A DNA stretch of 64,000 nt. Origin: Microbacterium sp. 4R-513. GTDB taxonomy: Bacteria; Actinomycetota; Actinomycetes; Actinomycetales; Microbacteriaceae. Position numbers and translations under genes: made by a program. This document shows, in pieces, positions 7,803 through 31,316 of the stretch. The DNA lies in NCBI RefSeq assembly GCF_011046485.1, contig NZ_CP049256.1:2046001-2110000 (forward strand), written 5' to 3'. Within the stretch, counting starts at the first letter, position 1. Each line of letters opens with the position of its first letter. The notes under the pieces are model-generated. The model had not been told where the DNA came from, made no database searches, and saw only the letters and a program-made list of their open reading frames with translations.

Positions 7803-9046
7803 TCAGGCGCCGGCGCGCACGAGCTCGAAGAGGTCGACCGGGCCGACCTGCCCGCCTTTCAGCAGCAGCTCCAGGCCGTCTACGACCGGATCCGAGGCGT
7901 GGCTGCGCAGCAGCACGACGTTCGCCACGGGGTTCGCGGCGATCGACAGCGACTCGATGCCGAGGAGGCGTGTCACCCGGCTCGACGTGTCTCCGCCGCA
8001 CACGATGACGCGTCGCGTCGCTCCCGCGCGCACCGCCGCTTCGATGACGGATGCCGCGGCATCCGCGATCCGCTCCAGAGCCCCTGCCGGCCCGGACAGG
8101 TCCGCGTCGTCCGAGGTCAGCGCGACGCTCCGCCCCGCGCGCAGGGCGGCGACGACTTCCGACGCCTGATCGGCGTCGTCGAGCCGGAGGGGTTCGACCA
8201 GCCAGCCCGCCTGGGCTGCGGCATCCGCCTGCCGACGGGTCTGCGGGGACCGGCTGCCCGAGACAGCGAGAACCGGCCCGGACGCGTCGCCCCTGAGCGG
8301 CAGCTCGACCCTCCCGGAGCCCGTCGCCGCGGCGAGCCCGCGGCTCAGCCCCCCGATCCGATCGCGAAGACCGGCGCCACCGCTGCGACGGCACGGCCGA
8401 CGATCTCGACGTGCTCATCGGTGAGCGCGTCGAGGACGAGGGCCGCGGCATCCGTTCCCTCGATCACGGACGCGAGGTCGTCGTCGTCGTACGCGACCGA
8501 GTGCACCGAGCCGATCGGCAGCGTCGTCTGCAGGGCGAAATGCGCTGCGAGGTCGGCCTCGCGCATCGGCGTCGACGGATGGTTCGACATGGTCGGCTGC
8601 CGATCGAGCCGGTAGACGGTGTCGCCCTCGCGCGCGAAGTGCTGGCCGAACACCGTGTAGCGCCCGAAGTCGGGCTGCGCGAAGAGCATCGGCACGGCTC
8701 GCGTGCCGAACGAGGAGCGCGCGATCTCGATGACGCGCCCGATCGATCCGATCGTCGGCGACGAATCGGCCGTCGAGCACGCCTTGTACTGCACGACGCC
8801 GGTGCCGAGGTCGCGCAGAGCCCCGAAGACGGGGGTCAGTTCGGCCTCGAGCGACGGGGTCGACAGCGACCGCGCGATCCCTGCGATGCCGACGACGTCG
8901 ACCTCGTCGGCCGCGGCGCGCAGCACCCCCTCGGCGGGAAGCCCCGTGAAAAGCCGTCCGGCGAGCCCGTAGCGCGCGAATTGCAGCAGCACATCGACGC
9001 TGCCGGTGAAGTCGTCGCCGTAGAAGGCGACGGCGGCTCTAGCCAC
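7803..9046 (-). CDS. oiaK: DUF1537 (OtnK/OiaK-type) sugar-acid kinase, probable 3-oxo-isoapionate 4-kinase, apparent frameshift
   Basis: Four-carbon acid sugar kinase family. The N-terminal half begins with YGDDFTGSVDVLLQF, the DUF1537 substrate-binding signature, and contains VQYKACSTADSSPTIGSIG. The C-terminal nucleotide-binding half has VCGGDTSSRV and ANPVANVVLL. Both halves are intact but in different frames; adding one G to the G6 run at 8349-8354 (complement) gives 414 residues, the normal family length. The start is a GTG that overlaps the RuBisCO-like gene by 8 bp. In the known D-apionate pathways a DUF1537 kinase (OiaK) phosphorylates 3-oxo-isoapionate just before an RLP acts. That pairing is seen here; 3-oxo-tetronate kinase is the alternative. 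Confidence 0.7.
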
Positions 9047-10301
9047 CGGCGGGCTCCCGCACGGGTCCGAACGTCTCCACGGCACGCCGCAGGGCGGGCG
9101 AGGCGGAGAGCGCGCTCGACACGGGCTCGCCGCGCAGCGCCGAGTCCCATGCGGCGCGCATGCTCTCGACTCCGGCCGCCGAGCCGTCGGGATGACCGTG
9201 GATGCCGCCGCCCGCCAGGACCAGGAGGTCGGCCGTGCCGACGGCGGCGTAGGTCGCGTGCGCGAGCCCCGCCCACTGCCCCGACGACAGCACGGGGACG
9301 GTCGGCGTGAGGTCGAGCAGAGGGGCGCGGACTGCGGCGATCGAGTCGAGGACCTCGGCATCCGATTCGTAGAACTTGTTCGAGATGCCGTTCGTGTGAA
9401 GGTGGTCGGCGCCGCTGAGGCGGGCGAGCTGCTGCCACGCTCGGAAGCCGATTCCCACCTGCTCCGAGCGGCTGAGGGCGCCGAAGCCGGCGCGGTGTCC
9501 GTGGATGGGCACTTGCGTGCGACGCGAGAGATACTCGAGCCCGGCGAGCCCGACGTTAGGGATGACGACCATGACGCACGTGCCGCCCGCCTCGACGACG
9601 AGGTCGTGGTTGGCCTCGAGCCGGTCGATGTCGTCGGTGATGTTGAACGCGTACATGGGCTTCACACCGGTGCGGTCGGCGTGGCGCTCGAGCACGGGCA
9701 TGACGGCGCGGACGCGCTGGGCGAGCGGCGCGGACGGGCCGTTGCCCTGCAGCTCGTCGTCCTTGATGAAGTCGACGCCCGCCTCCGCGAGCTCGCCGAC
9801 GAGCGCCGCCAGGTCGTCCGGTGAGAGGCCGATCGACGGCTTGACGATCGTCCCGATCATGGGGCCGTCGGGGCGGCTCATGAGCGCTCGCGTCCCCGCG
9901 ACTCCGAAACGTGGGCCGCGGTACCGCTCGCCGAAGGCGGGAGGAAGCGAGAGGTCGACGAGCTTGACGGCGGCGAACTCCTTCAGCTCGAAGAGGTTGC
10001 CCGCGACCGCGGCGAGGAGGTTGGGAAGCGACGGACCGAAGTTGCCGAGCGGGAAGCGCAGAGTGAGCCGGGCGCGGCGGCGGTGGCCGGCGCCCACGGT
10101 GCCGGGAAGCGGCGACGCCCCGACCAGGGGCGCCTCGTCGACCGACTCCACCTGCGCCGCGAAACGTGCGCGGAGGTCGTCGGTCTCGCGCTCCACGCGC
10201 ACGAACGTGCCCGTCGACTGCTCGCCGACGAGCACCTCCGCGGCGCGCTCGATCGGCATGGCCGTCTCGACGACGTACGTCGCCCGCACGAACGCGTCCA
10301 T
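9039..10301 (-). CDS. oiaC: RuBisCO-like protein, probable 3-oxo-isoapionate-4-phosphate decarboxylase (OiaC type)
   Basis: 420-residue RuBisCO large-chain superfamily member. Visible active-site elements: GTIVKPSIGL (Lys near 152), the metal-binding DFIKDDE loop (near 175-182), GHRAGFG (His near 265), HTNGISNKF (near 310) and the phosphate loop GGGIHGHPDGSAAG (near 363). The Lys-Asp-Asp-Glu metal site is retained. RLPs do not fix CO2 in such contexts. The adjacent DUF1537 kinase, and the apnL- and apnO-like genes in the other operon, point to D-apionate catabolism. The TIM-like and RpiB-like tetrulose phosphate isomerases nearby favour the decarboxylase (product L-erythrulose 1-phosphate) over the OiaX hydrolase type. 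Family call is firm; the reaction is inference. Confidence 0.75.
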   Translation of the reverse strand: MDAFVRATYVVETAMPIERAAEVLVGEQSTGTFVRVERETDDLRARFAAQVESVDEAPLVGASPLPGTVGAGHRRRARLTLRFPLGNFGPSLPNLLAAVAGNLFELKEFAAVKLVDLSLPPAFGERYRGPRFGVAGTRALMSRPDGPMIGTIVKPSIGLSPDDLAALVGELAEAGVDFIKDDELQGNGPSAPLAQRVRAVMPVLERHADRTGVKPMYAFNITDDIDRLEANHDLVVEAGGTCVMVVIPNVGLAGLEYLSRRTQVPIHGHRAGFGALSRSEQVGIGFRAWQQLARLSGADHLHTNGISNKFYESDAEVLDSIAAVRAPLLDLTPTVPVLSSGQWAGLAHATYAAVGTADLLVLAGGGIHGHPDGSAAGVESMRAAWDSALRGEPVSSALSASPALRRAVETFGPVREPAGG

Positions 10302-12337
10302 CACCAGACCAGCGGGAGCCACACGGACATCTCGGAGGATCCGCGATTGCCCCAGGCGAAGTACGGGATGAGCCGTGCCTCGATCGAGCCGAGCTCCGCC
10401 GCACCGACCTCGGCGTACAGCTCGTCCGAGTTCTCCAAGGGAAGCACCGCGAAGTCGCCCGCGAGCTCCACGAGCCCGTACCCGTCGACGTCGGACTTGC
10501 GGGGTTCCAGGGGCGCCCCGCGCCGCAGCGCCACCTGCTCGAGCGCCACGCCTCCCGGCAGATCGGCGCTCTCGAGGCAGTAGACGACGGGTCCGCGCTG
10601 CACGGCCACCTGTCCCGTGAGCTCTTCGGCGAGGCGATGGCCGCGCAGCACCCGCACCGGCATCGGGAGCGTCAGCACGACGACGTCGCCGACCTCCCAC
10701 GTGCGATCCACTCGCGCGTAGGTGCCAGGCGCCGGGGCCGGCAACGCGTTGCCGTTGACCTCGAGTGCCGCCTCGGCCGCCCAGCCCGGCACCCGGAGGT
10801 GCAGCGGCATCCCTCCGTCCACGGCTTCGGTGACGGTGAAGGCGATGCGCCCGTCCCACGGATAGTCGCTGTCCTCCCGCAAGGCGAGCACCCGTCCGTC
10901 GGCGTCGAATCGCAGCTCGCTGCCGCCGTACTGATGGACGAAGAGTCCGTCCGGTGATACGGACGCCGCCCGCTCGTGGAATCGCGCGAGCGTCCGGGCG
11001 AGGTTGGGCGGACAGCAGTAGCAGCTCAGATACCGCTCGCGGAGGCGCTCGTCCGACGGGGGAGGGGGCGGGACGGGGTGGAGCCCGGTGTCGCCCGGAC
11101 GGCGCAGCGGGAACGGCAGGTCGCGCACCTGACGCAGGGCGTTCGTGTAGAAGTAGTCGGTGCCCGCGAGCGAGACTCCGGCGAGCAGCGTGTTGAAGGC
11201 GATGCGCTCGATGACATCGGCGTACTTGGCGTCACCGGTGAGCGACAGCATCCGTTCGCTCCACAGGATCATGCCGATGTTCGCGCAGGTCTCGCTGTGG
11301 GCCGTCGTGTGGGGCAGCTGGTACGCGCGTCCGTAGGCCTGATGAACGCGGCTGATCTGCTCCTGCCAGGGCGAGCCGTCGGGAGAGGCGCCGTCGTACA
11401 GCGCGCCGCAGCCGCCCGTGACATAGAGCTTCGTGTCGACGACGTCGTCCCAGAGGTTCTCGAGCACGGCCTGCAGCCCGGTGTCTCCCGTCTCGCTGAC
11501 GAGGTCGGCGAGGCCCGCGTAGAGGTAGTTGGCGCGCACGGCGTGACCGGCAACGACCTTCTGCTCGCGCACGGGGAGGCGGTCCTGGTTGTCGTCCCCG
11601 CCCTCGAAGTCGTCCCGCACCCGCAGGAATGCCTCGGCGAGCCGCAGGTACTGCTCGTCGCCCGTCGCGCGGTAGAGGTCGATGACCGCCATGTAGTGCG
11701 ACGGGCAGATGGCACTGCGGGCGAGTTCGAGCGGCTTGTTCGTGGCGAGGTCTTCGAGGAAGGATGCCGCGCGCTCGGCGACCTCGAGGAGGGTCCTAGA
11801 CCCGGTCACCTCGTAGTGCCGCACCCCGGCCGTGATGAGGTGGCCGAGGTTGTAGGTCTCGAAGTTGAAGCGGTCGGCGAGGGCGATCGCATCCTCGTGG
11901 TTGCGCGACGAGATGATCGTCGGCGTGTGGAGGTACCCGTCCTCTCTCTGCACCGACGCGAGAAGCTGGGCGACCTCTTCGACGGCCTCGGCCAGCCAGG
12001 GCTCCGGGTCCGTCTCGAGCTGCGCGATCGCTGCCTCCAGCCACTTGTAGAAGTCGCCGTCCATGAACGGGGGGCCCTGGTGCTCACCCTCTTCGAGGCC
12101 CGCCGCGATGCGGAAGTTCGTGAGCCCTGGGCTGACGGCCGGGTCGCTGAGCGCGCGCCACATATCGGGCACCGTCGTGGTGCGGGTGCGCGCGTGGATG
12201 TCGCCCCAGAACCCGCTCGTCCACCGGGCGCCCTCGGCCCCGAGGGCGGTCAGCCGCGCTCCCGGCGTCGCCGAGCGATGGGCCGCACCCGCCGATCCCG
12301 CAGACGGTCGGACCGCTGCACCTGCGCCGGCGCTCAT
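10301..12337 (-). CDS. GH127 family glycosidase (beta-L-arabinofuranosidase-like), cytosolic
   Basis: 678 residues, (alpha/alpha)6 barrel plus beta domains, with no signal peptide. The zinc-linked GH127 active site is visible: HSETCANIG near 345 (Glu-x-Cys) and CYCCPPN near 436 (Cys-Cys pair), matching the Glu/three-Cys site of HypBA1. It removes beta-L-arabinofuranose or related sugars from imported oligosaccharides. Some GH127 members act on aceric acid in rhamnogalacturonan II, so the substrate is open. ATGA overlap with the upstream racemase-like gene and TGATG overlap with the RLP gene show tight coupling. A short Pro-rich insert (VPPPPPS) lies near 420. Confidence 0.9.
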   Translation of the reverse strand: MSAGAGAAVRPSAGSAGAAHRSATPGARLTALGAEGARWTSGFWGDIHARTRTTTVPDMWRALSDPAVSPGLTNFRIAAGLEEGEHQGPPFMDGDFYKWLEAAIAQLETDPEPWLAEAVEEVAQLLASVQREDGYLHTPTIISSRNHEDAIALADRFNFETYNLGHLITAGVRHYEVTGSRTLLEVAERAASFLEDLATNKPLELARSAICPSHYMAVIDLYRATGDEQYLRLAEAFLRVRDDFEGGDDNQDRLPVREQKVVAGHAVRANYLYAGLADLVSETGDTGLQAVLENLWDDVVDTKLYVTGGCGALYDGASPDGSPWQEQISRVHQAYGRAYQLPHTTAHSETCANIGMILWSERMLSLTGDAKYADVIERIAFNTLLAGVSLAGTDYFYTNALRQVRDLPFPLRRPGDTGLHPVPPPPPSDERLRERYLSCYCCPPNLARTLARFHERAASVSPDGLFVHQYGGSELRFDADGRVLALREDSDYPWDGRIAFTVTEAVDGGMPLHLRVPGWAAEAALEVNGNALPAPAPGTYARVDRTWEVGDVVVLTLPMPVRVLRGHRLAEELTGQVAVQRGPVVYCLESADLPGGVALEQVALRRGAPLEPRKSDVDGYGLVELAGDFAVLPLENSDELYAEVGAAELGSIEARLIPYFAWGNRGSSEMSVWLPLVW

Positions 12338-12999
12338 CGCCCGCGCTCCCCGGCCCCGATCGTCGCGGCGAGCCGCTCGATCCCCGGCCCGACGCTCGTG
12401 AGCACCGGCACGCCGACCTCGACGGCTTCCGCGGCCGACGCCATCGAAGCCTGGGCGAGCACGACGACGTCTGCGCCTCCGGCCAGCCGCTCGATCGCCG
12501 CGGCTACCAGTCGGTCGTGCTCGGCGCGATCGCCGGACGACACGGCGGCGAACGCGCCGTCGACGACCTCTGACCTGATCGACGGCGCACGGCCCGCGAG
12601 CGCGGCTCGCTCTTCGAGCAGCCCCACCGTGGGGCGGAGGGTCGTGGGCAGGGTGGCGATCACGGCGATGCGGTCGCCGGCGGAGACCGCGGCATCCGCC
12701 ATAGCCTCATCGATCCGCAGGACGGGGATGCCGACCTCGGCGCCGATGGGAGCGGCGAGCTCCGAGATCGACGAGCACGTCAGCATGACGACGTCGGCGC
12801 CCGCGGCCTTCGCCGCATGGACGAGGTCGGTGATGCGGCCGGGAACGGAAGCCGCACGATCGGGATCGCCGAGGTCGGCGACGATCCGGTCGTCGAGGTA
12901 GTTCACGAACGTCGCGTCGGGCAGGGCCGCTCGCGCCCTGTCTCCGACCGGACCGATGTTGACGGCCCCCGTGTGCAGAAAAGCGATGCGTGTGCTCAT
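12334..12999 (-). CDS. Asp/Glu racemase-fold protein with only one active-site cysteine
   Basis: 221 residues of the aspartate/glutamate/hydantoin racemase superfamily. The first catalytic region is MLTCSSIS (Cys near 74). The second region, normally GCT-like, reads VVLAQASMASA (near 176) and lacks the Cys, so a two-base racemase mechanism is unlikely. Known one-Cys relatives act as decarboxylases or isomerases. It overlaps both neighbours by ATGA and so belongs to the GH78-GH127-RLP-kinase operon. A role in converting a branched sugar acid intermediate is possible but unproven. Confidence 0.7.
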   Translation of the reverse strand: MSTRIAFLHTGAVNIGPVGDRARAALPDATFVNYLDDRIVADLGDPDRAASVPGRITDLVHAAKAAGADVVMLTCSSISELAAPIGAEVGIPVLRIDEAMADAAVSAGDRIAVIATLPTTLRPTVGLLEERAALAGRAPSIRSEVVDGAFAAVSSGDRAEHDRLVAAAIERLAGGADVVVLAQASMASAAEAVEVGVPVLTSVGPGIERLAATIGAGERGR

Positions 13000-15603
13000 G
13001 CGATCTCCTCCAGAACCGTCATCGAGACGGTGCGCTCGTGGGTGCCGTGGCCCAGCACCTCGACATCCTCGCCCTCGAGGTCGAGGATTCCCTCGGCGCC
13101 GACGGGAACGACCACCGTGACGTGCAGCCCGGCGTCGTCGAGGCGCCACTCGATCGATGTCTCACCGTACGGGGTGATGTGGCGCGCGCTCGCCGATGTG
13201 AGCCCTCCCCCGGCCTCGGCGCGAACCGGATGCGGCGGTAGCCCGGCGCGTCCGGGGCGAGTCCCGCGACGACCCGGTGGAGCCAGTCGGCCACCGCGCC
13301 CAGGGCGTAGTGATTGAACGACGTCATCGATCCGGGGTTGACCGTGCCGTCGGGGAGCATCGAGTCCCACCGCTCCCACACGGTCGTCGCACCCATCCGC
13401 ACCTGGTACAGCCACGACGGGCACTCCTCCTCGAGCAGGAGGTCGTAGGCCGTCTCGAGGCGGCCGTGCGCGCTCAGCGCGTCCGCGAGCACCGGAGTGC
13501 CGACGAACCCGGTCGCGATGCGATTGCCCGCGCCTCGCACGAGCTCCGCGAGGCGCTCGGCCGCGGCATCCCGGAGCGACGGGGGAGAAGTTCGAATCGC
13601 AGCGCGATAGCGTAGGCGGTCTGCGCGTCGGAGGCCATACGGCCGTCATCGTCGACGTAGCGTGCGACGAACGCTGAGCGGACCTCGCCGGCGAGCGTCG
13701 CGTAGTGCGCTGCCATCGCGGTCTCGCCGAGGGCATCGGCCATGCGGGAGACGAGCTCCGCGGAAAGTGCGAAGTAGGCCGTCGCGACGAGGTAGCGGTC
13801 GGTGCGGCCGTCGGCCGGGTCCTGCGGCGGCGCGGCGGGGTCGAGCCAGTCGCCCAGCTGATAGCCGGAGTCCCACAGGCGCGAGGGTCCGGCGATGTCG
13901 GCCTGGAGATCCACCCACTTGCGGGCGCTCTCGAACTGCGCGCGCAGCACGCCGAGGTCGCCGAACCGCTCGTAGAGCGTCCAGGGCACGACGGTGGCCG
14001 CATCGCCCCACGCCGCGCCCGGGCGCTGCGGCGTCCACATCGTGTCGGCCGGGATGACGGGCACGAACCACGGCACCGTGCCGTCCGGCAGCTGCTCGGC
14101 CTCGAGGTCGCGTAGCCAGCCCGACAGCATGCCCGAGCAGTCGTAGAGGAAGGACGCGGTCGGTGCGAAGACCTGGATGTCGCCGGTCCACCCGAGCCGC
14201 TCGTCGCGCTGGGGGCAGTCGGTGGGGACGTCGACGAAGTTGCCGCGCATGCCCCACACGATGTTCTCGTGCAGGCGTCCGAGCAGCGGATCGGATGCCT
14301 CGAACCAGCCCGTCCGCTCGAGGTCGGAGTGGAGGACGCGGGCGACGAGCGCACCGTCCGCGACGGCGGCGTCGAGGTCGCCCGGCCATCCGTCCACCTC
14401 TGCGTAGCGGAAGCCGTGGAAGGTGAAGCGGGGCTCCCATTCCTCGCCCTGGGGCCGGCCCGCGAAGGTGTAGCGGTCGGTCGACTTCGCCTCGCGGAGC
14501 GGGCGGGTGTAGAGCTCGCCGTCCTGCAGGACCTCCGCGGTGCGCAGGGTAACGGTCGTGCCGGCCGCCGCCGATCCGCGCAGGCGCACGACGCCGACGA
14601 GGTTCTGCCCGAAGTCGAGGATGCGACGCCCCGACGGAGTGGTCAGCACCGCGACGGCATGCACGTCCTGTGTCACCCGGACGGGCGGCGCCGTCGGCGC
14701 GACGAGAGTGGCGGGATCGCGGCGGCGCAGCTGCACGCGGCCCCACGCACTGTCGTCGAAGCCCGCGCGCGACCAGCCGGGCAGCTCCTCGCGGGCGTCG
14801 TAGTCCTCCCCGTCGTAGAGGCCCGACGCGAGGATCGGGCTCAGGGCTGCCTTCCAGGTCGTGTCTGTCGCCACGACCGTCCGCGTGCCGTCGTCGTATG
14901 TGAGCTCGAGCTGACCGAGGAAGGACAGGTCGTCTCCCGAGAGGTTGCGGAAGCCGCCCCGCCAGCCGAGCCTGCCGCGATACCAGCCGTCGCCGAGCCA
15001 GGCGCCGATCGCGTTGTCGCCTGTCTCGAGAAGGTCGGTGACGTCGTAGGTGTAGTACCGCAGCCGCTCGCGATAGACGGTCCAGCCGGGGGAGAGCACG
15101 TCGTCGCCGACACGCCGACCGTTGATCTCGGCCTGGTACACGCCGTGCGCCGTCGCGTAGAGGCGCGCGCGGACGAGGCCGGGGCGCACCGAGAACTCCG
15201 TCCGCACGAGCGACGGTCGACGGCGGTCGGAGTGCGGGTTCTCGTTCCAGACCGCGCCGATCGGCCCGGCAGCCCAGTCGCCGGGAGCGAGGAGGCCCGC
15301 TTCCACCGTCGTCCAGCCGCCGGGCTGCGACCACGACCCGTCATCGCCGCGTACGCTCACGCGCACGTCGACGATGGTGCGCGACTCGAGCGGCTCGACC
15401 GGCCAGGGAACGAGCACCTGGTCCGATCCCTCGATGTCCACGACGACGGATGCCTCGTCCCGCCGCACCTCGACCCGGTAGCCGGTCTGCGCCCAGCCCT
15501 CGGGCGCAGAGGTGATGGTCCACGACAGGCGCGGACGCGACTCGCCGATCCCCCGCGGCTCGCGGTGATGCTCGACTCGGGGTGCGGACACGGTGACCGT
15601 CAT
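12996..15603 (-). CDS. GH78 alpha-L-rhamnosidase, cytosolic, two apparent homopolymer frameshifts
   Basis: First gene of the operon. N-terminal beta domains with WAAGPIGAVWNEN and an LSPGWTVYRERLRYYTYDV segment are followed by the (alpha/alpha)6 GH78 catalytic domain with DCPQRDERLGWTGD near residue 460. The C-terminal part continues in two other frames. Adding one base at a C/G5 run at 13581-13585 and one at 13207-13211 joins FELLPP to SLRDAAAERL and FAPRPGG to GLTSASARHITPYG, giving 869 residues, normal for GH78. There is no signal peptide, so it works on imported rhamnosides. The start follows a promoter flanked by two LacI-type operators. Confidence 0.85.
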
Positions 15604-15690: not shown

Positions 15691-15743
15691 AAACACGACG
15701 CCGGCGCGCGAAGCGCGGTACGGTGGCGAACTCGGAGGCAGCC

Positions 15744-16574
15744 ATGATCATCGGTGTGACCGGCAGCGGCGGAAAGCTCGGACGAGCGACCGTCGCCGAG
15801 CTGCGCGAACGCGGGCACGACGTCATCGGCTTCGACCTCACGGGCCCCGCCGGACCGGGATTCGTCCGTGTCGACTTCACGGACTACGGCCAGACGCTCG
15901 ATGCCTTCCTCGGCGTCACGGCCCGGCACGACGGGCTCGACGCGCTCGTGCATCTCGCTGCCCTGCCGGTCAACGGTCTCGTGCCCGACGCGACGACGTT
16001 CGACAACAACGTCAGCGTCTCGTTCCACGTCCTCTTCGCGGCGCATCGCGCGGGCATCCGCAGGATCGTCTCGGCGTCGAGCATCACGGCGATGGGATTC
16101 CCCTTCGACGTGGCTCCGCCGGCCCTGCCCGTGGACGAGTCGTACACGCAGGCGAACAACACCTACGGCCTCGGAAAGGTCGTCGAGGAGGCGATGGCGG
16201 GCCAGCTCGTGTCGTGGCATCCCGAGACGTCGATCGCCGCGCTCCGCTTCACGAACGTCGTCGACGAGGCCGGGTACGACACCTTCGAGCGGGCGAGCGA
16301 CCCGGACTATCGCCGCGATCTTCTCGGCACGTGGATCGACGCGCGCGACGGCGCGCTCGCCGTCGCACTCGCCCTCGCGAACGCCCGGCCGGGCTTCGAG
16401 GTCTACAACGTCGCGGCGCCGGAGTCCGGCCTGTCGATCCCGTCGCGAGAGCTCGCCCAGCGCTGGTTCCCCGGCACCCCCGTCGCCGAGGACCTCGGCG
16501 AGTTCGAGTCGCTCGTCTCGACGCGCAAGCTGCGCGAGCAGCTCGGTTTCGTCGCGAGGCACGACTGGCGCTGA
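15744..16574 (+). CDS. NAD(P)-dependent extended SDR (uronate/sugar dehydrogenase-like)
   Basis: 276 residues. Rossmann motif GVTGSGGKLG (3-12), the HLAALP segment near 75, a Ser in SASSITAMG and the YxxxK dyad in NTYGLGKVVEE near 150. It is 30-40 percent similar by eye to the SDR at 45313. The start is ATG 15744 with GGAGG five bases upstream; a GTG at 15723 is in frame but lacks an RBS. It is divergent from the GH78 operon and shares its operator region, so it is probably co-regulated. A role in sugar or sugar-acid oxidation is inferred; uronate dehydrogenase-like SDRs look similar. Confidence 0.8.
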   Translation: MIIGVTGSGGKLGRATVAELRERGHDVIGFDLTGPAGPGFVRVDFTDYGQTLDAFLGVTARHDGLDALVHLAALPVNGLVPDATTFDNNVSVSFHVLFAAHRAGIRRIVSASSITAMGFPFDVAPPALPVDESYTQANNTYGLGKVVEEAMAGQLVSWHPETSIAALRFTNVVDEAGYDTFERASDPDYRRDLLGTWIDARDGALAVALALANARPGFEVYNVAAPESGLSIPSRELAQRWFPGTPVAEDLGEFESLVSTRKLREQLGFVARHDWR

Positions 16575-17654: not shown

Positions 17655-17665
17655 GGTCGGCGCTC

Positions 17666-18547: not shown

Positions 18548-18597
18548 GTGCGGCAACTTTCGGGAGAGCGTGAGCGGTGGCGTCTGTGACAGGATGA

Positions 18598-18633
18598 CGC
18601 CCCGGCGCGCCTGAGACCAGACGCGCCGGGGCG
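18598..18633 (-). terminator. Intra-operon hairpin between binding protein and permease genes
   Basis: Perfect 12-bp arms CGCCCCGGCGCG (18598-18609) and CGCGCCGGGGCG (18622-18633) with a 12-base loop. Such a hairpin behind an ABC binding-protein gene usually lowers permease expression relative to the binding protein. Confidence 0.7.
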
Positions 18634-18639
18634 CGAGGA

Positions 18640-19956: not shown

Positions 19957-19988
19957 ATTTCCTCCTTGAAAAGTGGGAGCATCTCCTT

Positions 19989-20113: not shown

Positions 20114-20201
20114 AGTCGACGTGTGCGTGCAACGGCGGCTCCGCTACAGTGCTGTTCAATCTGTGGGCGCTGGGGCCGACCGATGGAGAAGGGGCAGTCC
20201 A

Positions 20202-22525: not shown

Positions 22526-22588
22526 CGTTGCTCCTGCTCTCGTGGTCCGCGAGGTCGAGGGGTCGCGCGCGCCGCCTCCGGCGACTTC

Positions 22589-22617
22589 GGTTCGACCCTT
22601 CGACAAGCTCAGGGACC
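22589..22617 (-). repeat. Dispersed repeat copy 3, at the apnL 3' end
   Basis: A full 29-bp copy on the minus strand (GGTCCCTGAGCTTG at one end, GGGTCGAACC at the other). Its TGA provides the stop codon of the lactonase gene at 22609. Confidence 0.9.
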
Positions 22618-24366: not shown

Positions 24367-24367
24367 C

Positions 24368-25147
24368 TCAGAGCGAGGTCATGCCGCCGTCGACCTGGAA
24401 CAGCCCTCCGGTCGCGAACGAGCCGTCGTCGCTGGCGAGGTACACCATGATGCCGGCGACATCGTCGGGGGTCCCCGCGCGACCGATCGGGATGCGGCTG
24501 ATGATCGCTGCGCGCGACTCCGGGTCTTCGCTGATCGCGGCGACGAGCGGGGTCTCGGTGTAGGCGGGCTGGACCGTGTTGACGCGGATGCCCCTCGACG
24601 CGTAGGCGGCGGCCACCGTGCGGCCGAGGCCGTGGATGCCGGCCTTCGAGGCGCTGTAGGCGGTGAAGTCCTTGCCCTCGCCGTTGACCCCCGTGGGGCT
24701 GCCCGTCAGGATGATGGACCCGCCGCCCCAGCGCGAAGCCTGCTGATCGGCACTGCGGAGCATCGAGCGCACCGCGTGCTTGACGGTCAGGAACGTCCCG
24801 GTCAGGTTGATGTCGATCGTGCGTCGCCAGACGTCGAGGTCGAGGTCGGCCGCCTGTGCGTCCTGGCCGAAGAGCTGCACGCCGGCGTTCGCGACCACGA
24901 CGTCGGGCGCCCAGCCGTCGGCCTCGACCTCGGCGAAGGCCGCGGCGACCGCCTCCTCGTCCGAGATGTCCATCGTCACTGCACGGGCGTTATCGCCGAT
25001 CTCAGCCGCCGCATGCGCCGCGCCTTCGCCGTTGCGGTCGGCGAGCACGACACGTGCGCCCTCGCGGGCGAATCGCTGCGCCACAGCGAGGCCGATGCCG
25101 AGCGCCCCGCCCGTGATGAGCGCGGTCTTGCCTTCCAGCTGTCCCAT
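24368..25147 (-). CDS. SDR-family oxidoreductase (candidate sugar or polyol dehydrogenase)
   Basis: 259-residue classical SDR: TGGALGIG cofactor loop (11-18), DMD-like acidic residue region near 60, NAG near 88, catalytic Ser in SIILTGSPTG and YSASK near 160. C-terminal GGLFQVDGGMTSL is typical. It could oxidise D-apiose to its lactone, the step otherwise missing from the cluster, or act on a tetritol. The start ATG 25147 overlaps nothing; it is 35 bp after apnO and 1 bp before apnL, so it is co-transcribed. Confidence 0.85.
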   Translation of the reverse strand: MGQLEGKTALITGGALGIGLAVAQRFAREGARVVLADRNGEGAAHAAAEIGDNARAVTMDISDEEAVAAAFAEVEADGWAPDVVVANAGVQLFGQDAQAADLDLDVWRRTIDINLTGTFLTVKHAVRSMLRSADQQASRWGGGSIILTGSPTGVNGEGKDFTAYSASKAGIHGLGRTVAAAYASRGIRVNTVQPAYTETPLVAAISEDPESRAAIISRIPIGRAGTPDDVAGIMVYLASDDGSFATGGLFQVDGGMTSL

Positions 25148-25182
25148 GGTCGAGTGCCTTTCCCGAGTCCGCTCTCGCGGAG

Positions 25183-26091
25183 TCACCGCTCGATGTGGTC
25201 GAGGTGGAGCATCCGCGCGAGGTTCTTGTCGAGCTCGTCGTCGCGGAAGATCTTCTTCCAGTCGTCCTTGATGATGCTCTCGCGACCGTAGTCCATCGCG
25301 ATGAGGCACGCGTCGCTGAACGGGTTGTCGCCGCGCAGGCCGTTGGCGAGGGCGACCTGGGTGTGGCCGTACAGGATGCTGCGGGCCGCCGCCTCGGGGA
25401 CTCCCATCGTGTTGATCGCCTCGTCGAGCGCCTCGTTGAGCAGGGCGCCGATCATGCACGCGACGGTCTCGACGAGGGTGGGCTCGAGCTGAGCGAGCTG
25501 CTTGACGGTGACGAAGTGCACGTCGATGACGGGGGCGTAGATCGCGCGGACCGTGGCCTCGACGATGGCCTTGTGCGCGGGGTCGTCGCTCTCGACGGCC
25601 GCGATGGCGTCCTGGGGCGCCGCGATCCCGCCGAACGTGTCGGCCCACTCCTCCTTCGAGGTGCGCTCCAGGAACACCGAGGGGTGGCACGGGTGCGCGA
25701 CCGCCTGGACGACGTCGTCGCGCGTCGTCAGGAGGCCTGCGTAAGCCGCGGCCGGGTCGAGCGTGAGCACGATCGCGCCGGACTTGAGCTGGGGCACGAG
25801 GTCGGCGGTGACGGGGCCCAGCGCGAGGTCCGGGACGGCGAGCACGACGATGTCGGCGTCGGCGACGGCGGTCGAGGCATCCGTCAGCTCTCGGCCGGCT
25901 TCGCGGGTGCGCTGCTGACCCGCGGGGGAGTTCTCGACGTACCAGACGGTGTGGTCGGTCTTGACGAGGTTGTTGGACACGCGCATGCCCATCTTCCCGC
26001 CCGCGCCGAGGACGGCGATCTTGTACGGGCCGGTCGCGCTGTTCGGCTCGGCGGTCCCCGAGCTCGTCGAGGGGTCGGTGGTGGTGCTCAT
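25183..26091 (-). CDS. apnO: Probable D-apionate oxidoisomerase (ApnO-like)
   Basis: 302 residues of the 6-phosphogluconate dehydrogenase-like superfamily. Rossmann motif AVLGAGGKMGMR (26-37), VVLAVPDLALG, HPCHPSVF near 132 and TFGGIAAPQDA, then an all-helical C-terminal domain with DACLIAMDYGRESIIKDDWKK. This pattern matches ApnO, which oxidises and isomerises D-apionate to 3-oxo-isoapionate. The first 20 residues contain DPSTSSGT, encoded by repeat copy 4, and are unlike the compact N-terminus expected. The ATG overlaps the stop of the isomerase upstream. Other C4/C5 sugar-acid dehydrogenases of this fold remain possible. Confidence 0.65.
   Translation of the reverse strand: MSTTTDPSTSSGTAEPNSATGPYKIAVLGAGGKMGMRVSNNLVKTDHTVWYVENSPAGQQRTREAGRELTDASTAVADADIVVLAVPDLALGPVTADLVPQLKSGAIVLTLDPAAAYAGLLTTRDDVVQAVAHPCHPSVFLERTSKEEWADTFGGIAAPQDAIAAVESDDPAHKAIVEATVRAIYAPVIDVHFVTVKQLAQLEPTLVETVACMIGALLNEALDEAINTMGVPEAAARSILYGHTQVALANGLRGDNPFSDACLIAMDYGRESIIKDDWKKIFRDDELDKNLARMLHLDHIER
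26053..26077 (-). repeat. Dispersed repeat copy 4, inside the apnO 5' end
   Basis: A 25-bp core copy (GGTCCCCGAGCTCG at its start, GAGGGGTCG at its end on the plus strand). Read on the coding strand it gives DPSTSSGT at residues 6-13 of the ApnO-like protein. Confidence 0.88.
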
Positions 26092-26882
26092 GATGTGCTC
26101 CTCAGGTAGTCGACGGTGGCGCGGGTCCAGTCCCGCTCGGTTCGGATGGTGGTGTCGGGGTCGCCCTGCCAGGGCAGCCAGTGCTCGACGATCTCGTCGA
26201 TGCCGCGCTCGCGCGGGCGGACGGTCTCGAGAAGGTGCGGGTAGTCGTGCAGGCCGTCGCCCATGCGGGCGCCGCTGTAGGTGAAGCCGACCCAGCCGGC
26301 CTGCCGGTCGAAGGCGAAGTCCTTCACATGCACGTTCGCGACGACGTCGGCGGTGAGCTCGACGCACGCGCGCGGGAGCTCGAGCCGGGCGACGACGTTC
26401 GCCGGGTCGAGGCAGACGCCGAGCTGCGGGCTGCCGAACGACTCCACGAGGGCCACGAGATCGGCCGTTCCGACCTGCTCGTACGTCTCAAGGGCGAGCG
26501 TGACGCCGGCGGCCTCATAGGCGGGGAGCGCTTCGCGGAGCCAGACGGATGCCTCGGCGAGCGTCGGTCGCGAGTCGGGGCCGTAGAGCATGCTGCGGAC
26601 GAGGCGCGCATCGAACGCCTCTGCGAGGCGGAGGTAGCGCGCCAGGTGGTCGGGCTCGACGCCCTTGGTGCCGAGCTGGATCGTGAGGCCCAGGTCGCGG
26701 GCGGCTGCGGCGGCGTCCGTGAGCTCGGCGTCGGACATTCCATCGAGGGGCGCGTAGTCGCAGATCTGGAAGAGATCGACGTCGAGCTCGCGGGTGGCCT
26801 CGAACGCGCCGCGCAGGCTCAGCGGCTCCGGCGCACGCTCGGAGTGCTGCCAGAAGAAGGCGTAGGTGCCGAGCCCGATCAT
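26088..26882 (-). CDS. Sugar phosphate isomerase/epimerase (xylose isomerase-like TIM barrel)
   Basis: 264 residues, AP-endonuclease-2-like TIM barrel. Metal ligands are suggested by LALETYEQV (Glu near 147), CLDPANVV (Asp near 177), NVHVKDFAFD (His/Asp near 207) and the C-terminal ERGIDEIVEHW (Glu near 238). The family includes hydroxypyruvate isomerase, tagatose epimerase and EryC-like enzymes. In this operon it may isomerise apiose, an oxo-acid or a tetrulose phosphate; I cannot choose. ATGA overlaps link it to the genes on both sides. Confidence 0.8.
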   Translation of the reverse strand: MIGLGTYAFFWQHSERAPEPLSLRGAFEATRELDVDLFQICDYAPLDGMSDAELTDAAAAARDLGLTIQLGTKGVEPDHLARYLRLAEAFDARLVRSMLYGPDSRPTLAEASVWLREALPAYEAAGVTLALETYEQVGTADLVALVESFGSPQLGVCLDPANVVARLELPRACVELTADVVANVHVKDFAFDRQAGWVGFTYSGARMGDGLHDYPHLLETVRPRERGIDEIVEHWLPWQGDPDTTIRTERDWTRATVDYLRSTS

Positions 26883-27643
26883 GCGGCTGCCCCCGCGTGG
26901 GCGGCGGCCTCGTCGAGGACGGCCGCGAGGTTGTCGATGTCGTGGGCGAAGCGGCCCAGGAAGAGGCCGTCGACGGCGTCGCCCAGCTCGGTCAGCAGAC
27001 CGGGGCCGGCCGAGCCGCCGTAGATGACGGCGCTGCCCGCACGATCGGGCATCGCGAGGAGCGCCTCGCGCAGGGCGCGGGCGACCGTCACGATGTGCGC
27101 GACGGGGGCCGGCTCGGGGGTACCGATCGCCCAGACGGGCTCGTACGCCACGATGACGGGTCCTGCCGGCGCCCCGGCGAGATCGGCGTGGAACTGCGCG
27201 ATCGTGGCGGCCGAGGCATCCGTCGCCTCCTGACGCTCGGTCTCGCCCACGCAGAGCACGGGAGTGATGCCGTGGCGGAGGGCGGCGGCGGTCTTGGCGG
27301 CGACCACCTCGTCGGTCTCGCCGAAGAGGCGGCGACGTTCGGCGTGACCGACTTCGGCGACGCGGACGCCCGCCTCGGCGAGCTCGGCGGCGCTCACCTC
27401 GCCGGTGTACGCGCCGGGTTCGTGGGCTGCGACGTCCTGCGCTCCGATGAGCACGCGGGTGCCGACGAACGCGTCGAGGGCGGGGAGGATGCCGAGATAG
27501 GTGGGGATGACGAAGAGGGCGACGTCTCCGGATGCCACGGCCGGGTGGGTGCGCACGCGGTCGGCGACGCGCGCGCACCAGTCGATCGCCTGATGATGCC
27601 CGAAGTACATCTTCAGGCTCACGCCCACCACGGCGCGAGGCAT
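26879..27643 (-). CDS. Triose-phosphate isomerase family, probable L-erythrulose-1-phosphate isomerase (LerI/EryH-like)
   Basis: 254-residue TIM homologue with the catalytic set KMYFGHH (Lys near 11), VGHAERR (His near 97), VAYEPVWAIG (Glu near 168) and GGSAGPGL (near 210). The start of the Lys motif (SLKMYFG rather than GNWKMN) marks the divergent TIM group found in erythritol and tetrulose operons, not glycolytic TpiA. Such enzymes convert L-erythrulose 1-phosphate to D-erythrulose 4-phosphate. RBS GGAGGAGAGG precedes the ATG. It is followed by the RpiB-like gene that would catalyse the next step. Confidence 0.78.
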   Translation of the reverse strand: MPRAVVGVSLKMYFGHHQAIDWCARVADRVRTHPAVASGDVALFVIPTYLGILPALDAFVGTRVLIGAQDVAAHEPGAYTGEVSAAELAEAGVRVAEVGHAERRRLFGETDEVVAAKTAAALRHGITPVLCVGETERQEATDASAATIAQFHADLAGAPAGPVIVAYEPVWAIGTPEPAPVAHIVTVARALREALLAMPDRAGSAVIYGGSAGPGLLTELGDAVDGLFLGRFAHDIDNLAAVLDEAAAHAGAAA

Positions 27644-27683
27644 CAGCCCTCTCCTCCCACGGTCAGCACTGTCTGGTCTGCGG

Positions 27684-28154
27684 TCAGCACTGTCCGGTCG
27701 TCTCGTACTGGTCGATGACGGCGACCTTCTCGGCCGAGGCCGAGGTGGGGTCGAAGCGGTAGGTGAGCCACTCGCGCACGAGGCGGCGGGCGAGCTCGAG
27801 ACCGATGACGCGCTGACCGAGCGTCAGGACCTGCGCGTCGTTCGAGAGCACGCTGCGCTCGACCGAGAAGCTGTCGTGCGCCGTGACGGCGCGGATGCCG
27901 GCGACCTTGTTCGCCGAGATGGCGACGCCGAGGCCCGTGCCGCAGACGAGCAGGGCACGGTCGGCCTCGCCCTTGGCGACGAGCTCGGCAGCGGCGATGG
28001 CGACCTTCGGGTACGCCGTGTGCCCGTCGGAGTCCACGCCGACGTCGATCACCGACGCGACGCCGTCGCTCTGCTCGAGGTCCTTCTTGAGGGCCTCTTT
28101 GTAGTCGAAGCCGGCGTCGTCGCTTCCGACGACGATGCGGAGGGGCTCAGCCAT
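27684..28154 (-). CDS. RpiB-family isomerase, probable D-erythrulose-4-phosphate isomerase (DerI/EryI-like)
   Basis: 156 residues. RpiB/LacAB signature: [14 protein letters not shown] near 9-22, [37 protein letters not shown] near 48-84 with the catalytic Cys in CGTGLG. The GSDDAG start replaces the GSDHAG of ribose-phosphate isomerases, as in tetrulose phosphate isomerases. It would yield D-erythrose 4-phosphate for the pentose phosphate pathway. One base separates its ATG from the stop of the kinase gene upstream. A short direct repeat (GGTCAGCACTGTC twice, about 27660-27691) spans its 3' end and the gap to the next gene. Confidence 0.78.
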
Positions 28155-28155
28155 G

Positions 28156-29910
28156 TCAGTTCCTTTCGAGGGGCTGGTCGAGGTCGGCGGCCGCGGCAGC
28201 GAGCACGTCGCCGACCGCCGTCACGATGAGGGCGAGCGAGAAGGCGCCCGGATCGGGCGTCCCGACGCTGTTCTGTCCGTGCGTGCGTGCCCGGCCCATG
28301 CGGGGGAGGAGGTCGGCGGTCGCACCGGCGGCGCGGGTCGCGGCGTCCGCGGCGACACGCCAGGCGTCGACGAGGCGTGCGCCCGCGTCGATCTGCTGCG
28401 ACAGCTCGCTGCTGAAGGGGACGAGCGCGTCGACCATGGTCTTGTCGCCGACCTCGGCCTTGCCGTACGCCATGACGGCGGCCCGGCCCCCGGCCACGCC
28501 GGACGCGACGGCCGTGCGCGAGGGACGGCCCTCGTCGCCGAGAGCGCCGGCGAGGGACGACAGGATGACGCCCCAGAGCGCACCCGACGTGCCCCCGGCC
28601 CGGTCCGACCAGGCGTCGGCGGCGCGGGCGAGCGTCGTGCCGGCGCCTGCCCCCGCCTCGGCGGCGGCCCGGCCGGCATCGAGCGCCGCGTGCGACCCGC
28701 GCTGCATGCCGATGCCGTGGTCGCCGTCACCGGCGATGGCGTCGATCCGGCCGAGCTCGTCGACGTGGGTGTCGATGGTCGCGACGACCGTCTCGAGCGC
28801 CGCGACCACGGTCTGCGCGGCGACGCGCGATGCGTCGTCGGCCGGCGGGACGGCCTCCTCCGCGTCGGACGCGGCCTCGGCGTCGCTCCGGCGCTCCTGA
28901 GGAGCGACGGAGCCGCGGCGGTAGGCCGGCGTGTCGACGGGGGTCTCCCAGAGGTCGGCGAGCTCGTCGTCGAGCCAGAACAGCGTGAGCGAGACGCCCG
29001 CCATGTCGAAGCTCGTGCAGTACTCGCCCACGTGCGGGTCGGCGATGTCGATGCCGGCGTCGGCGAGGAGCTGGGCGACCCGTCGGTACACGACGAAGAG
29101 CTCTTCGTACTTGAGCGATCCGAGGCCGTTGAGGATCGGCACGACGCGCGCGCCCGCGGTTTCGACGCCCTCGGGCACTTCGTCGAGGAGCCGTCCGACG
29201 AGAAGCTCCGCGAGGCCGTCGGCCGTCGGGATGTCGGTCTCGTCGACGCCCGGCTCGCCGTGGATGCCGAGGCCGACCGCCATGCGCCCCTCGGGCACGC
29301 TGAACAGGGGCTGCTCCGCGCCGGGGAGGGTGCACCCGGTGAATGCCACGCCGAACGACCGGGTGCGGTCGTTGGCGAGTCGGCCGACGCGCGTGACCTC
29401 GGCGAGGTCGTAGCCGCGGTCGGCTGCGGCGGCGGCCGCGCGGAAGACCGTGAGGTCGCCCGCGATGCCGCGGCGCTTGTGCTTCTCGTCGGGATTCGCG
29501 CTGACGATGTCGTCGGTCACCGTGACGGTCTCGCACGCGACGCCCTCGGCCCGGAGCCGGTCCTGCGCCGCGTCGAAGTTCAGGACGTCGCCGGCGTAGT
29601 TGCCGTAGCTGAAGAAGACCCCGCCGCCGTTGTCGGCCGCCTTCGCCACCGCGAAGACCTGCTGTGCCGACGGCGAGGCGAAGAGGTTGCCCATCGCCGC
29701 ACCGTGCGCGAGGCCCGGTCCGACGAGGCCTCCGAAGGCGGGGTAGTGGCCCGAGCCGCCGCCGATCACGACCGCGACCTGACCTTCCGGCGCGACCGTC
29801 GACCGGACGACGCCGCCCTGGACGCGCCGGACGTAGCGGCCGTTGGCCGCGACGAAGCCGTCGATCATCTCGTCCGCGAAGGCGGACGGCTCGTTCCACA
29901 AGCGGGTCAT
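28156..29910 (-). CDS. DhaK-DhaL fusion kinase, probable erythrulose or dihydroxyacetone kinase
   Basis: 584 residues, ATP-dependent type. DhaK domain (1 to about 330) has [17 protein letters not shown] near 44-60 and the substrate-binding His in GIHGEPG near 213. DhaL domain (about 385-584) has [10 protein letters not shown] and GGTSGALWG for ATP-Mg binding. The linker is Ala/Glu-rich. In the neighbourhood of TIM-like and RpiB-like isomerases such fusions phosphorylate L- or D-erythrulose (LerK/DerK in mycobacteria). That could be a second entry to the same tetrulose phosphate pool. The stop overlaps nothing; the ATG overlaps the MFS stop by 4 bp. Confidence 0.85.
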
Positions 29911-31316
29911 CGGCCGTTCGCCTCCTGCGCCTTGGCCTCGGCGACCTCGACGTGCGCGTCCGTGCCGGCCTGCTCGTCGACGATCCGATCGACCGGGGCG
30001 ATGCGATTGCTGCGGGCGAGGAGCAGCATCAGCAGGGCCGAGACGAGCATGAAGAATCCGACGATGAACATCGGCACCTCGTAGCCGCCGGTCCAGTCGT
30101 GGACGGCGCCGGTGATGTACGGGGCGCTGAACCCGGCGAGGTTGCCGATGGTGTTGATGAGGGCGACGCCGGCCGCCGCGGCGGCACCCGTGAGGAAGCG
30201 CGTAGGCAGCGTCCAGAAGTTCGGCAGCGCGGCGAAGATCGCGGAGGCGGTCACCGTGATCACGGCGATGGTCGCGACGGGCGAGCCTGCGAAGAGGGCG
30301 ATCGGGATGGTGACGCCGCCGACGAGAGCCGGGATGGCGATGTGCCACGTCTTGAGGCCGCGCTTCGAGGCATCCCGTGCCCAGAAGAACATGATGATGG
30401 CCGCCGGGAGATACGGGATCGCCGTGATGAGGCCCTTCTGGAGGGTGTCGAACGTCTGCCCGGTCTGCGCCTGGAAGCCCTCGATGATCGTCGGCAGGAA
30501 GAACGCCAGAGCGTACAGGCCGTAGATGAAGCCGAAGTAGATGAATGACAGCACCCACACGCGGCCGGACTTGAAGGCGAAGCGCACCGAGACGTGCTTC
30601 TCGCGCGCTTCGGTCGCCTTGCGCTCGTTCGCGAGGGCATCGGTCAGCCAGACCTGCTCGTCGTTCGAGAGCCACTTGGCGTCGGCCGGCTTGTCCTTGA
30701 GGTAGAACCACGCGATGACGCCGACGATGATCGCCGGGATGGCGACGCCGAAGAACATGAAGCGCCAGCCCTCGAGGCCGAAGAAGACCGCGTGCTGCTG
30801 GATGAGCCAGCCGGCGAGCGGGGCGCCGAAGACGGTCGTGAGGGGCTGGGCGAGGTAGAAGAGCATGAGGATGCGGCTGCGGTACTGCGACGGCACCCAC
30901 AGGCTCAGGAAGAGGATCGCGCCCGGGAAGAAGCCGGCCTCGGCGACGCCGAGGAGGAAGCGCAGGAAGACGAGCTGCTCGAAGTTCTGCACCCAGGTGA
31001 AGAGCAGGGCGACGATTCCCCAGCTGACCATGATGCGCGAGAGCCACCGGCGGGCGCCGAACTTGTGCAGGGCGAGGTTGGACGGCACCTCGAGCAGGAT
31101 GTAGCCGATGAAGAAGACCCCGGAGGCGAAGCCGAACTGAGCGGCGCTGAGCGCGAGGTCTTCGTTCATGCCGTTGGGGGCGGCGAACCCGATCGCGGTG
31201 CGGTCGAGGTAGTTGATGAAGAACATCAGCGCGACGAAGGGGACGAGGCGCCACGCCACCTTCCGGATCGCCGAGCGCGCGACGTCGCTCTGTGCGGTGT
31301 TGAGGGTCTGGTCCAC
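29907..31316 (-). CDS. MFS transporter (anion:cation symporter-like, sugar acid or polyol uptake)
   Basis: 469 residues with about 12 membrane helices. NYLDRTAIGFAAP near helix 1 is characteristic of the ACS family (hexuronate, tartrate and phthalate type carriers), and the loop WLSRIMVSWGIVA near 98 matches the MFS signature region. Start is GTG 31316 with GACGGAG as RBS. As first gene of the operon for sugar-acid catabolism it probably imports an acidic monosaccharide such as apionate, or an uncharged tetrose (inference). It is divergent from the GntR regulator. Confidence 0.88.
   Translation of the reverse strand: MDQTLNTAQSDVARSAIRKVAWRLVPFVALMFFINYLDRTAIGFAAPNGMNEDLALSAAQFGFASGVFFIGYILLEVPSNLALHKFGARRWLSRIMVSWGIVALLFTWVQNFEQLVFLRFLLGVAEAGFFPGAILFLSLWVPSQYRSRILMLFYLAQPLTTVFGAPLAGWLIQQHAVFFGLEGWRFMFFGVAIPAIIVGVIAWFYLKDKPADAKWLSNDEQVWLTDALANERKATEAREKHVSVRFAFKSGRVWVLSFIYFGFIYGLYALAFFLPTIIEGFQAQTGQTFDTLQKGLITAIPYLPAAIIMFFWARDASKRGLKTWHIAIPALVGGVTIPIALFAGSPVATIAVITVTASAIFAALPNFWTLPTRFLTGAAAAAGVALINTIGNLAGFSAPYITGAVHDWTGGYEVPMFIVGFFMLVSALLMLLLARSNRIAPVDRIVDEQAGTDAHVEVAEAKAQEANGR

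Follow-up and report, generated by a model that had tools for sequence, protein, structure and literature searches.

We analysed a stretch of 64,000 nucleotides from Microbacterium sp. 4R-513 (contig NZ_CP049256.1, positions 2,046,001 to 2,110,000; the whole stretch is referred to as the window), in which two gene clusters on the minus strand had been related to the catabolism of D-apionate. Each cluster has its own divergent regulator, of the LacI family in one case and of the GntR/FCD type in the other (Table 1). The LacI cluster contains genes for a solute-binding protein, two permeases, a short-chain dehydrogenase/reductase (SDR) on the opposite strand, a GH78 and a GH127 glycoside hydrolase, an Asp/Glu-racemase-fold protein (called rac in the following), a RuBisCO-like protein (RLP) and a DUF1537 kinase. 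A transporter of the major facilitator superfamily (MFS), a DAK-type kinase, RpiB-like and triosephosphate isomerase (TIM)-like isomerases, an AP_endonuc_2 barrel protein, an ApnO-like protein, a second SDR, an ApnL-like lactonase and a GH63/MGH1-like glycosidase are encoded in the GntR cluster.

Much of this layout was stated by the original prediction. Profile searches confirm the two different regulators, the kinase (SBD_N and NBD_C domains within 7803-9046) and the RLP in one operon, the ApnL-like, ApnO-like, TIM-like and RpiB-like proteins in the other, and the presence of GH78 and GH127. Our interpretation departs from the single apionate route over both operons that had been proposed. 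Judging from the sequences, we consider it rather probable that the clusters encode two distinct though linked routes that use sugars of rhamnogalacturonan II (RG-II), with the GntR operon serving D-apiose and the LacI operon serving aceric acid by way of the RLP.

Table 1. Features of the two clusters (positions within the window) and the profile evidence for each.
Feature	Position	Strand	Evidence
DUF1537 (OiaK-like) kinase, C-terminal part (NBD_C)	7803..8387	-	PF17042 69.8 bits
DUF1537 kinase, N-terminal part (SBD_N)	8345..9046	-	PF07005 146.8 bits; start GTG read by eye
RLP, OiaX family, predicted decarboxylase	9039..10301	-	RuBisCO_large 225.1 bits; NF042437 405.7 bits
GH127, aceric-acid-hydrolase-like	10301..12337	-	NF049879 770.8 bits
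Asp/Glu-racemase-fold protein (rac)	12334..12999	-	PF01177 72.1 bits, cut-off 31
GH78 alpha-L-rhamnosidase, two apparent frame changes	12996..15603	-	Pfam rhamnosidase domains in separate frames
NAD-dependent epimerase/dehydratase-family SDR inside LacI cluster	15723..16574	+	PF01370 63 bits
ABC sugar transporter: two permeases and solute-binding protein (18640-20019)	16740..20019	-	PF00528, PF01547
LacI-family regulator, divergent	20121..21218	+	PF00356, PF13377
MGH1-like/GH63-like glycosidase of GntR operon	21260..22531	-	PF22422 126 bits
ApnL-like lactonase	22609..24366	-	NF049900 223.9 bits
SDR dehydrogenase, candidate D-apiose 1-dehydrogenase	24368..25171	-	NCBIfam glucose-1-dehydrogenase subfamily
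ApnO-like D-apionate oxidoisomerase	25183..26091	-	PF16896 (PGDH_C) 188.7 bits
OiaC-like 3-oxo-isoapionate decarboxylase, AP_endonuc_2 barrel	26088..26882	-	PF01261
TIM-like isomerase (L-erythrulose-1-phosphate isomerase type by position)	26879..27643	-	PF00121 184 bits
RpiB-like isomerase (D-erythrulose-4-phosphate isomerase type by position)	27684..28154	-	PF02502
DAK-type kinase, predicted L-erythrulose kinase	28156..29904	-	Dak1 367.1, Dak2 149.9 bits
MFS transporter	29907..31316	-	PF07690 153.3 bits
GntR/FCD regulator, divergent	31423..32166	+	PF00392, PF07729

The GntR operon and D-apionate

A D-apionate pathway that proceeds by ApnO and OiaC exists. In the GntR operon, D-apiose would be converted to the lactone by the SDR, and the ApnL-like lactonase, the ApnO-like protein and the OiaC-like protein would lead via 3-oxo-isoapionate to L-erythrulose. 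The DAK-type kinase, followed by the TIM-like and RpiB-like isomerases, would yield D-erythrose 4-phosphate. As a kinase for the free tetrulose implies decarboxylation before phosphorylation, an RLP is unnecessary here, and with the OiaC-like decarboxylase and the DAK-type kinase inside the operon the route would be complete without it. The genes for these two proteins were absent from the original prediction, which also made no use of rac and called the RLP OiaC. This name has to be corrected: the RLP family in NCBIfam is OiaX, and it is relatives of the 26088-26882 protein that are called 3-oxoisoapionate decarboxylase by JGI.

The proposed comparison with ApnL, ApnO, OiaX and OiaK matched all families, with scores below the NCBIfam cut-offs for ApnL, OiaX and OiaK. 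For the ApnL-like protein the cut-off is 750 bits, and no Pfam family matched it in the profile scan. The idea that this 585-residue open reading frame belongs to the GH63-like gene and was split off by a frameshift was rejected, as the frame composition is that of separate neighbouring genes; the glycosidase that adjoins it is present in only some relatives. The SDR fits the glucose-1-dehydrogenase subfamily best (208.2 bits, cut-off 215), and the closest solved chain to the ApnO-like protein in a sequence search of the PDB is 5t57 (214.2 bits). Five relatives of the OiaC-like protein with 79-82% identity carry the JGI name (P0026, P0033, P0054, P0076, P0079), and most others are unnamed or have general names such as sugar phosphate isomerase/epimerase or TIM barrel protein. 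No NCBIfam model named OiaC matched it, nor did any chain in the PDB sequence search. The RpiB-like protein exceeds the cut-off of RPI_actino (210.8 bits) and stays below that of DerI (147.4 bits), and the DAK-type kinase is above the PRK14479 subfamily cut-off (742.7 bits against 492).

The distribution within the genus was studied in 198 genomes, in counts that take no account of kinship. An ApnO orthologue occurs in 56 of them, 28 with a close RLP, two (G104, G171) with an RLP of about 50% identity and 26 with no RLP match. We fetched the ApnO loci of 14 of these 26 genomes and counted homologues from 40% identity upwards. ApnO, the OiaC-like protein and ApnL are encoded in all 14 loci, the SDR and GntR in 13, the DAK-type kinase and RpiB in 11, TIM in ten and the MFS transporter in six; RLP, DUF1537 kinase, GH127 and rac were found in none of the 14 at this threshold. 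One stretch (L082) ends at a contig end. In L085 and L086 the DAK, TIM and RpiB genes are not beside ApnO despite a long stretch, so in these two the genes for the tetrulose steps are either located elsewhere or absent. A D-apionate route is well supported, and it is probably encoded by the GntR operon alone, not divided between two operons, as the RLP belongs to a separate cassette.

A flavoprotein resembling D-arabinono-1,4-lactone oxidase (32069-33487) adjoins the GntR gene and is also found near ApnO loci in some relatives.

The RLP cassette and its partners

RLP matches occur in 32 of the 198 genomes, 28 of them at 70-100% identity, two at about 50% and two at 35-37%. Orthologues of GH127 (at least 69%) are found in 28 genomes, and rac matches in 40, of which 28 have at least 67% identity. 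Compared by eye, the 28 genomes are the same in all three cases. For 18 of them we retrieved 20 kb around the RLP; all 18 loci contain RLP, kinase, GH127 and rac, and the transporter occurs in 17, GH78 in ten and an SDR of the 15723 type (at least 40% identity) in 12. We therefore regard RLP, kinase, rac and GH127 of the LacI operon as a cassette separate from the apionate route. Further partners are a SorC/DeoR-type regulator (12 of 18 loci, compared to 0 of 22 other fetched stretches), a GH140-like gene (ten) and GH2 with LacZ-type matches (six); these three counts are lower bounds from a crude gene call, and GH140 and GH42 labels were assigned by eye. Regulators of the SorC/DeoR type belong to a kind that senses phospho-sugars. 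A Pfam scan of the LacI cluster of the window found neither this regulator nor GH2 or GH140; the LacI regulator stands there instead.

The four RLPs of the genus below 70% identity were kept apart from the orthologue set. Those with about 50% identity to the RLP of the window lie, in two genomes, in a second, compact kinase-ApnO-ApnL-RLP cluster (L080, 6159-11509, and L081). The two with 35-37% adjoin a TIM gene (L100, L101), and for the L101 protein the best model is that of DK-MTP-1-P enolase (306.6 bits, below its cut-off).

The closest PDB chain to the RLP of the window is 3nwr. The RuBisCO catalytic residues are kept in it, as they are across 83 labelled rows, where one rac-linked row has Val for Arg295. 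The positions are presumably Lys175, Lys201, Asp203, Glu204, His294, Arg295, His327, Lys334 and Ser379, which we mapped by motif, with Ser379 unsure. ApnO-linked RLPs also miss the OiaX cut-off of 700 bits (L137 with 465.5 and L030 with 456.4 bits), which indicates that it is narrow, and rac-linked and ApnO-linked RLPs cannot be told apart by this score. A gene for ApnO is not in the same cluster as the RLP but in the other operon. The N-terminal part of the kinase obtains 178.4 bits for OiaK (NF042436, cut-off 700), and a one-frame orthologue in G190 obtains 249.5 bits. As the kinase is not in one frame in the window, what is predicted of its function is drawn from such relatives. RLPs are described in PMC6302742 as decarboxylating and transcarboxylating 3-oxo-isoapionate-4-phosphate.

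The GH127 protein matches the aceric acid hydrolase model NF049879 over its full length, and the other GH127 of the window (46793-49090) obtains 70.1 bits for it. The closest PDB chain to the GH127 beside the RLP is 5mqo, which we take to be BT1003 (632.1 bits; next chain 363.2). This GH127 is therefore nearer to aceric acid hydrolase than to arabinofuranosidases. BT1003 appears as aceric acid hydrolase among the enzymes compared in PMC10850190. Aceric acid, 3-C-carboxy-5-deoxy-L-xylose, is described in PMC8218411 as a component of side chain B of RG-II, together with rhamnose, methylfucose, arabinose, galactose and apiose at the reducing end, and BT_0993, a GH2 enzyme of Bacteroides thetaiotaomicron, acts on Gal-beta-1,2-aceric acid according to PMC11739564. 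The second GH127 lies in a region (46793-62585) with several GH43-like proteins that have Laminin_G and Ig-like domains, which by its gene content is probably devoted to arabinan degradation.

The rac protein belongs to the Asp/Glu racemase superfamily by both Pfam and fold (predicted model with pLDDT 95; best Foldseek E 2.8e-08), and no match was obtained in a PDB sequence search. Its fold also matches arylmalonate decarboxylase and hydantoin and allantoin racemases. Two-base amino acid racemases carry two catalytic cysteines. In 13 aligned rows of rac, Cys75 is the only invariant cysteine, and the region around 182-187 reads A-Q-x-S-M-A, so the second cysteine of a two-base racemase is lacking. 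A single invariant cysteine may suffice for a one-base proton shift, and rac is predicted to be an aldose-ketose isomerase for aceric acid.

Beyond the genus, we compared the best 80 of 562 confirmed RLP loci and the window, whose row was entered by hand (81 in total); some loci are short, so that absences there are weak. Of these, 35 contain rac only, 23 ApnO only, three both and 20 neither. GH127 of at least 300 bits is present in 23 of the 38 rac loci and in none of the 43 others. GH127, GH78, GH2 or GH42 of any kind occur in 33 of the 38 compared to 5 of the 43 others and one of the 26 ApnO loci, and the hydrolases of most rac loci fit RG-II side chain B. In an Anaerolineae metagenome-assembled genome (L154), a GH127 over the cut-off (1019.5 bits), rac, permeases, RLP and a kinase that is truncated where the stretch ends lie on one strand. 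Bythopirellula polymerisocia (L167) has RLP, kinase, rac and a GH127 with 942.9 bits, and Desertihabitans aurantiacus (L116) an RLP, a GH127 and a rac with 76%, 63% and 66% identity to those of the window. On an RLP tree (85 rows, quick method) the rac-linked proteins stand on several branches and the starred branches force at least seven label changes, from which it follows that the link between rac and RLP was made or lost several times.

An ApnO profile built from 11 proteins was searched in 30 picked genomes of unstated completeness, which cover 22 of the 34 named rac-only loci. Genome-wide, it did not find ApnO in 11 of these 22 (L116, L125, L126, L129, L147, L153, L158, L165, L167, L169, L176), nor in any of three genomes with neither gene at the locus (L121, L131, L145). 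One match was found for L124, a locus with rac and ApnO, and the four ApnO-linked controls all matched; two of them (L130, L140) had lent rows to the profile.

In five Bacillota loci (L125, L129, L131, L147, L165; L131 without rac) a split transketolase and an FGGY kinase lie nearby, as checked with Pfam in L125 only. Such a pair recalls the apulose-4-phosphate transketolase route for apiose. The NCBIfam names obtained for L125, glycerol kinase over the cut-off for the FGGY protein, transketolase and a weak sulfoquinovose isomerase, do not support this route. Directly upstream of rac or RLP in eight Bacillota loci (L125 at 7539-9263, L126, L129, L131, L134, L153, L158, L165) a protein of about 575 residues is encoded, for which no Pfam or NCBIfam match was found in L125; it could be a new hydrolase for aceric acid. 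In L127, L132, L133 and L179 the RLP-kinase pair is accompanied by genes for a zinc-dehydrogenase-like protein and a class II aldolase-family protein, while ApnO and rac are both lacking; these loci may represent a third kind of RLP module. The best model for the aldolase-family proteins in L127 and L132 is 3-oxo-tetronate 4-phosphate decarboxylase, with scores below its cut-off.

A proposed aceric acid route and its alternatives

OiaX-type chemistry needs a substrate of the form HOOC-C(OH)(R)-C(=O)-CH2OP. Aceric acid attains this pattern by 1,2-isomerisation and a kinase, with no oxidation, which predicts an isomerase in the place of ApnO, and rac takes this place. In the predicted order of steps, the transporter of the LacI operon would import an oligosaccharide of side chain B, GH127 would release aceric acid and GH78 rhamnose. 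The acid would be converted to its 2-ketose, most likely by rac, and the DUF1537 kinase would phosphorylate C1 of the ketose. The RLP would then decarboxylate the 2-hydroxy-3-oxo acid HOOC-C(OH)(CHOH-CH3)-C(=O)-CH2OP, which has CHOH-CH3 for CH2OH as its only difference from 3-oxo-isoapionate 4-phosphate, to a 5-deoxypentulose 1-phosphate. An aldolase of the rhamnulose-1-phosphate type, encoded elsewhere in the genome, may finally split this into dihydroxyacetone phosphate and acetaldehyde. Families, conservation, linkage and catalytic residues are what the sequences show; the substrate, the order of the steps and the roles of rac, the SDR and the aldolase are predictions. The genome of the window encodes a rhamnose isomerase (RhaI) and a RhaEW aldolase, both over their cut-offs. 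RhaEW is present in all 28 genomes with the cassette and in 152 of 198 overall, and is therefore too common for its presence to prove much; its distance from the RLP is at most 30 kb in 21 of the 28 and about 0.4 Mb in the genome of the window. In the stretch L187 (G000, at about 1.66 Mb), positions 2779-10958 hold genes for rhamnose isomerase, a rhamnulokinase-like protein and RhaEW and, a few kb from these, an apiosidase-family match (PF13204) at 10134-10958.

We tentatively propose that rac, kinase and RLP form a catabolic route for aceric acid, with rac as aldose-ketose isomerase and the RLP producing 5-deoxypentulose 1-phosphate, and that rac, taking the place of ApnO, became linked to OiaX-type RLPs on more than one occasion and in several phyla; as a whole we rate this possible, somewhat short of probable. 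A number of observations weigh against assigning the LacI operon to aceric acid. In the window the GH127 misses the aceric acid hydrolase cut-off of 950 bits, RLP and kinase are below their equivalog cut-offs, the frame of the kinase is broken, and the LacI operon contains no aldolase or classical sugar isomerase. Five of the 38 rac loci (L125, L147, L148, L175, L176) lack GH127, GH78, GH2 and GH42 in the fetched stretch, and in L173 the adjacent GH127 is of another kind (98.2 bits for NF049879). ApnO is present elsewhere in the other 11 of the 22 rac-only genomes, and the genomes of L173, L174 and L180 have it. No single residue rule separates all rac-type from all ApnO-type RLPs in the 83 rows. 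None of four comparisons of independent pairs on the RLP tree is significant: rac and GH127 gave three pairs in the same and none in the opposite direction (p 0.25), for rac with hydrolases the averages were 4.3 and 1.2 (median p 0.375), and for rac with ApnO 1.0 and 2.2 (median p 1), all of them underpowered. In a sample of 396 genomes of the phylum, 17 matched NF049879 (E <= 1e-100), 62 matched NF042437 (E <= 1e-40) and three matched both (the genome of the window, G295 and G569), so that 14 of the 17 have no OiaX-family match. The GH127 proteins of this sample other than that of the window reach 340-558 bits and may be arabinofuranosidases; with such low scores the sample says little for or against the proposal.

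The kinase and the RLP could instead act on 3-oxo-isoapionate supplied by ApnO from the other operon, and form a second branch, or the main one, of a single apionate route. All 28 genomes with a close RLP orthologue contain ApnO, compared to 56 of 198 overall; both genes share a contig, no more than 55 kb apart, in 23 of the 28 (they are on different contigs in four and about 304 kb apart in one), and membership in the OiaX and OiaK families and the kept catalytic residues of the RLP point in the same direction. We attribute the co-occurrence and frequent neighbourhood to a common source, since apiose and aceric acid are both sugars of RG-II side chain B. The GntR operon moreover holds its own decarboxylase and kinase and persists without an RLP, within the genus it is GH127 and rac that strictly accompany the RLP, and close cassettes such as that of L116 occur in genomes without detected ApnO. 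Taken together, this makes a single route quite improbable. We consider it unlikely as well, if slightly less so, that the cassette acts on a different branched or carboxylated sugar set free with these hydrolases, with rac acting for example as an epimerase or as a decarboxylase of the arylmalonate kind and not as an isomerase. The additional fold matches of rac, the GH127 score under the cut-off and the rac loci without a GH127 of the aceric-acid-hydrolase kind would agree with this. Against it stand the far better fit of the RLP-adjacent GH127 to aceric acid hydrolase than to arabinofuranosidases, and the fact that aceric acid yields the OiaX substrate pattern with no oxidation, matching the lack of ApnO.

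Compatible with any of these readings, and doubtful without being far-fetched, is that the LacI operon is decaying and no longer works in this strain. The two parts of the kinase are read in different frames, with the junction near 8350 at a run of six identical bases; the gene is one frame in the relatives L062, L068, L072 and L076. GH78 is spread over three frames by two frame changes and is one frame in L062, L068 and L072. A gene of the NAD-dependent epimerase family beside the LacI cluster (6649-7645) lies in two frames with the change at a run of six C, and is intact in L062. These frame changes may be due to sequencing errors or to decay: their clustering and the homopolymers fit an assembly error equally well, RLP, GH127, rac, transporter and regulator are each in one frame, and genome completeness is 99.99%.

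Comparison with known systems

If the aceric acid proposal is true, a new substrate joins the short list of RLP functions and the Asp/Glu racemase superfamily possibly gains a new activity. RLP-kinase operons of bacteria from several phyla would obtain a testable function, and the names OiaX and OiaK may sit on genes of another pathway. We know of no catabolic route described for aceric acid. A limited literature search, which had the primary apiose and RG-II papers outside its scope, found no publication that links aceric acid and RLPs, and we claim novelty only against the literature searched.

A D-apionate pathway with OiaK and OiaX was reportedly described in a paper on D-apiose (Nat Chem Biol 2018, cited in PMC6302742). 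The LacI operon resembles it in the OiaX-family RLP beside a DUF1537 kinase, in the same catalytic residues and in the decarboxylation predicted for it. It differs from it in that ApnO and ApnL are missing and that rac and an aceric-acid-hydrolase-like GH127 are present, in scores under the equivalog cut-offs, and in the occurrence of similar cassettes in genomes without detected ApnO. The GntR operon agrees with the pathway by ApnO and OiaC in its ApnL-like, ApnO-like and OiaC-like proteins, its kinase and its tetrulose isomerases; unlike the known pathway it is actinobacterial, its ApnL is under the cut-off, and some genomes have an extra GH63-like glycosidase. RG-II degradation by Bacteroides thetaiotaomicron shares the BT1003-type GH127 with the locus described here, and GH2, GH78 and GH140-like genes with related RLP loci. 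In contrast to that organism, the hydrolases are joined here with a proposed catabolic route for the aceric acid that they would set free.

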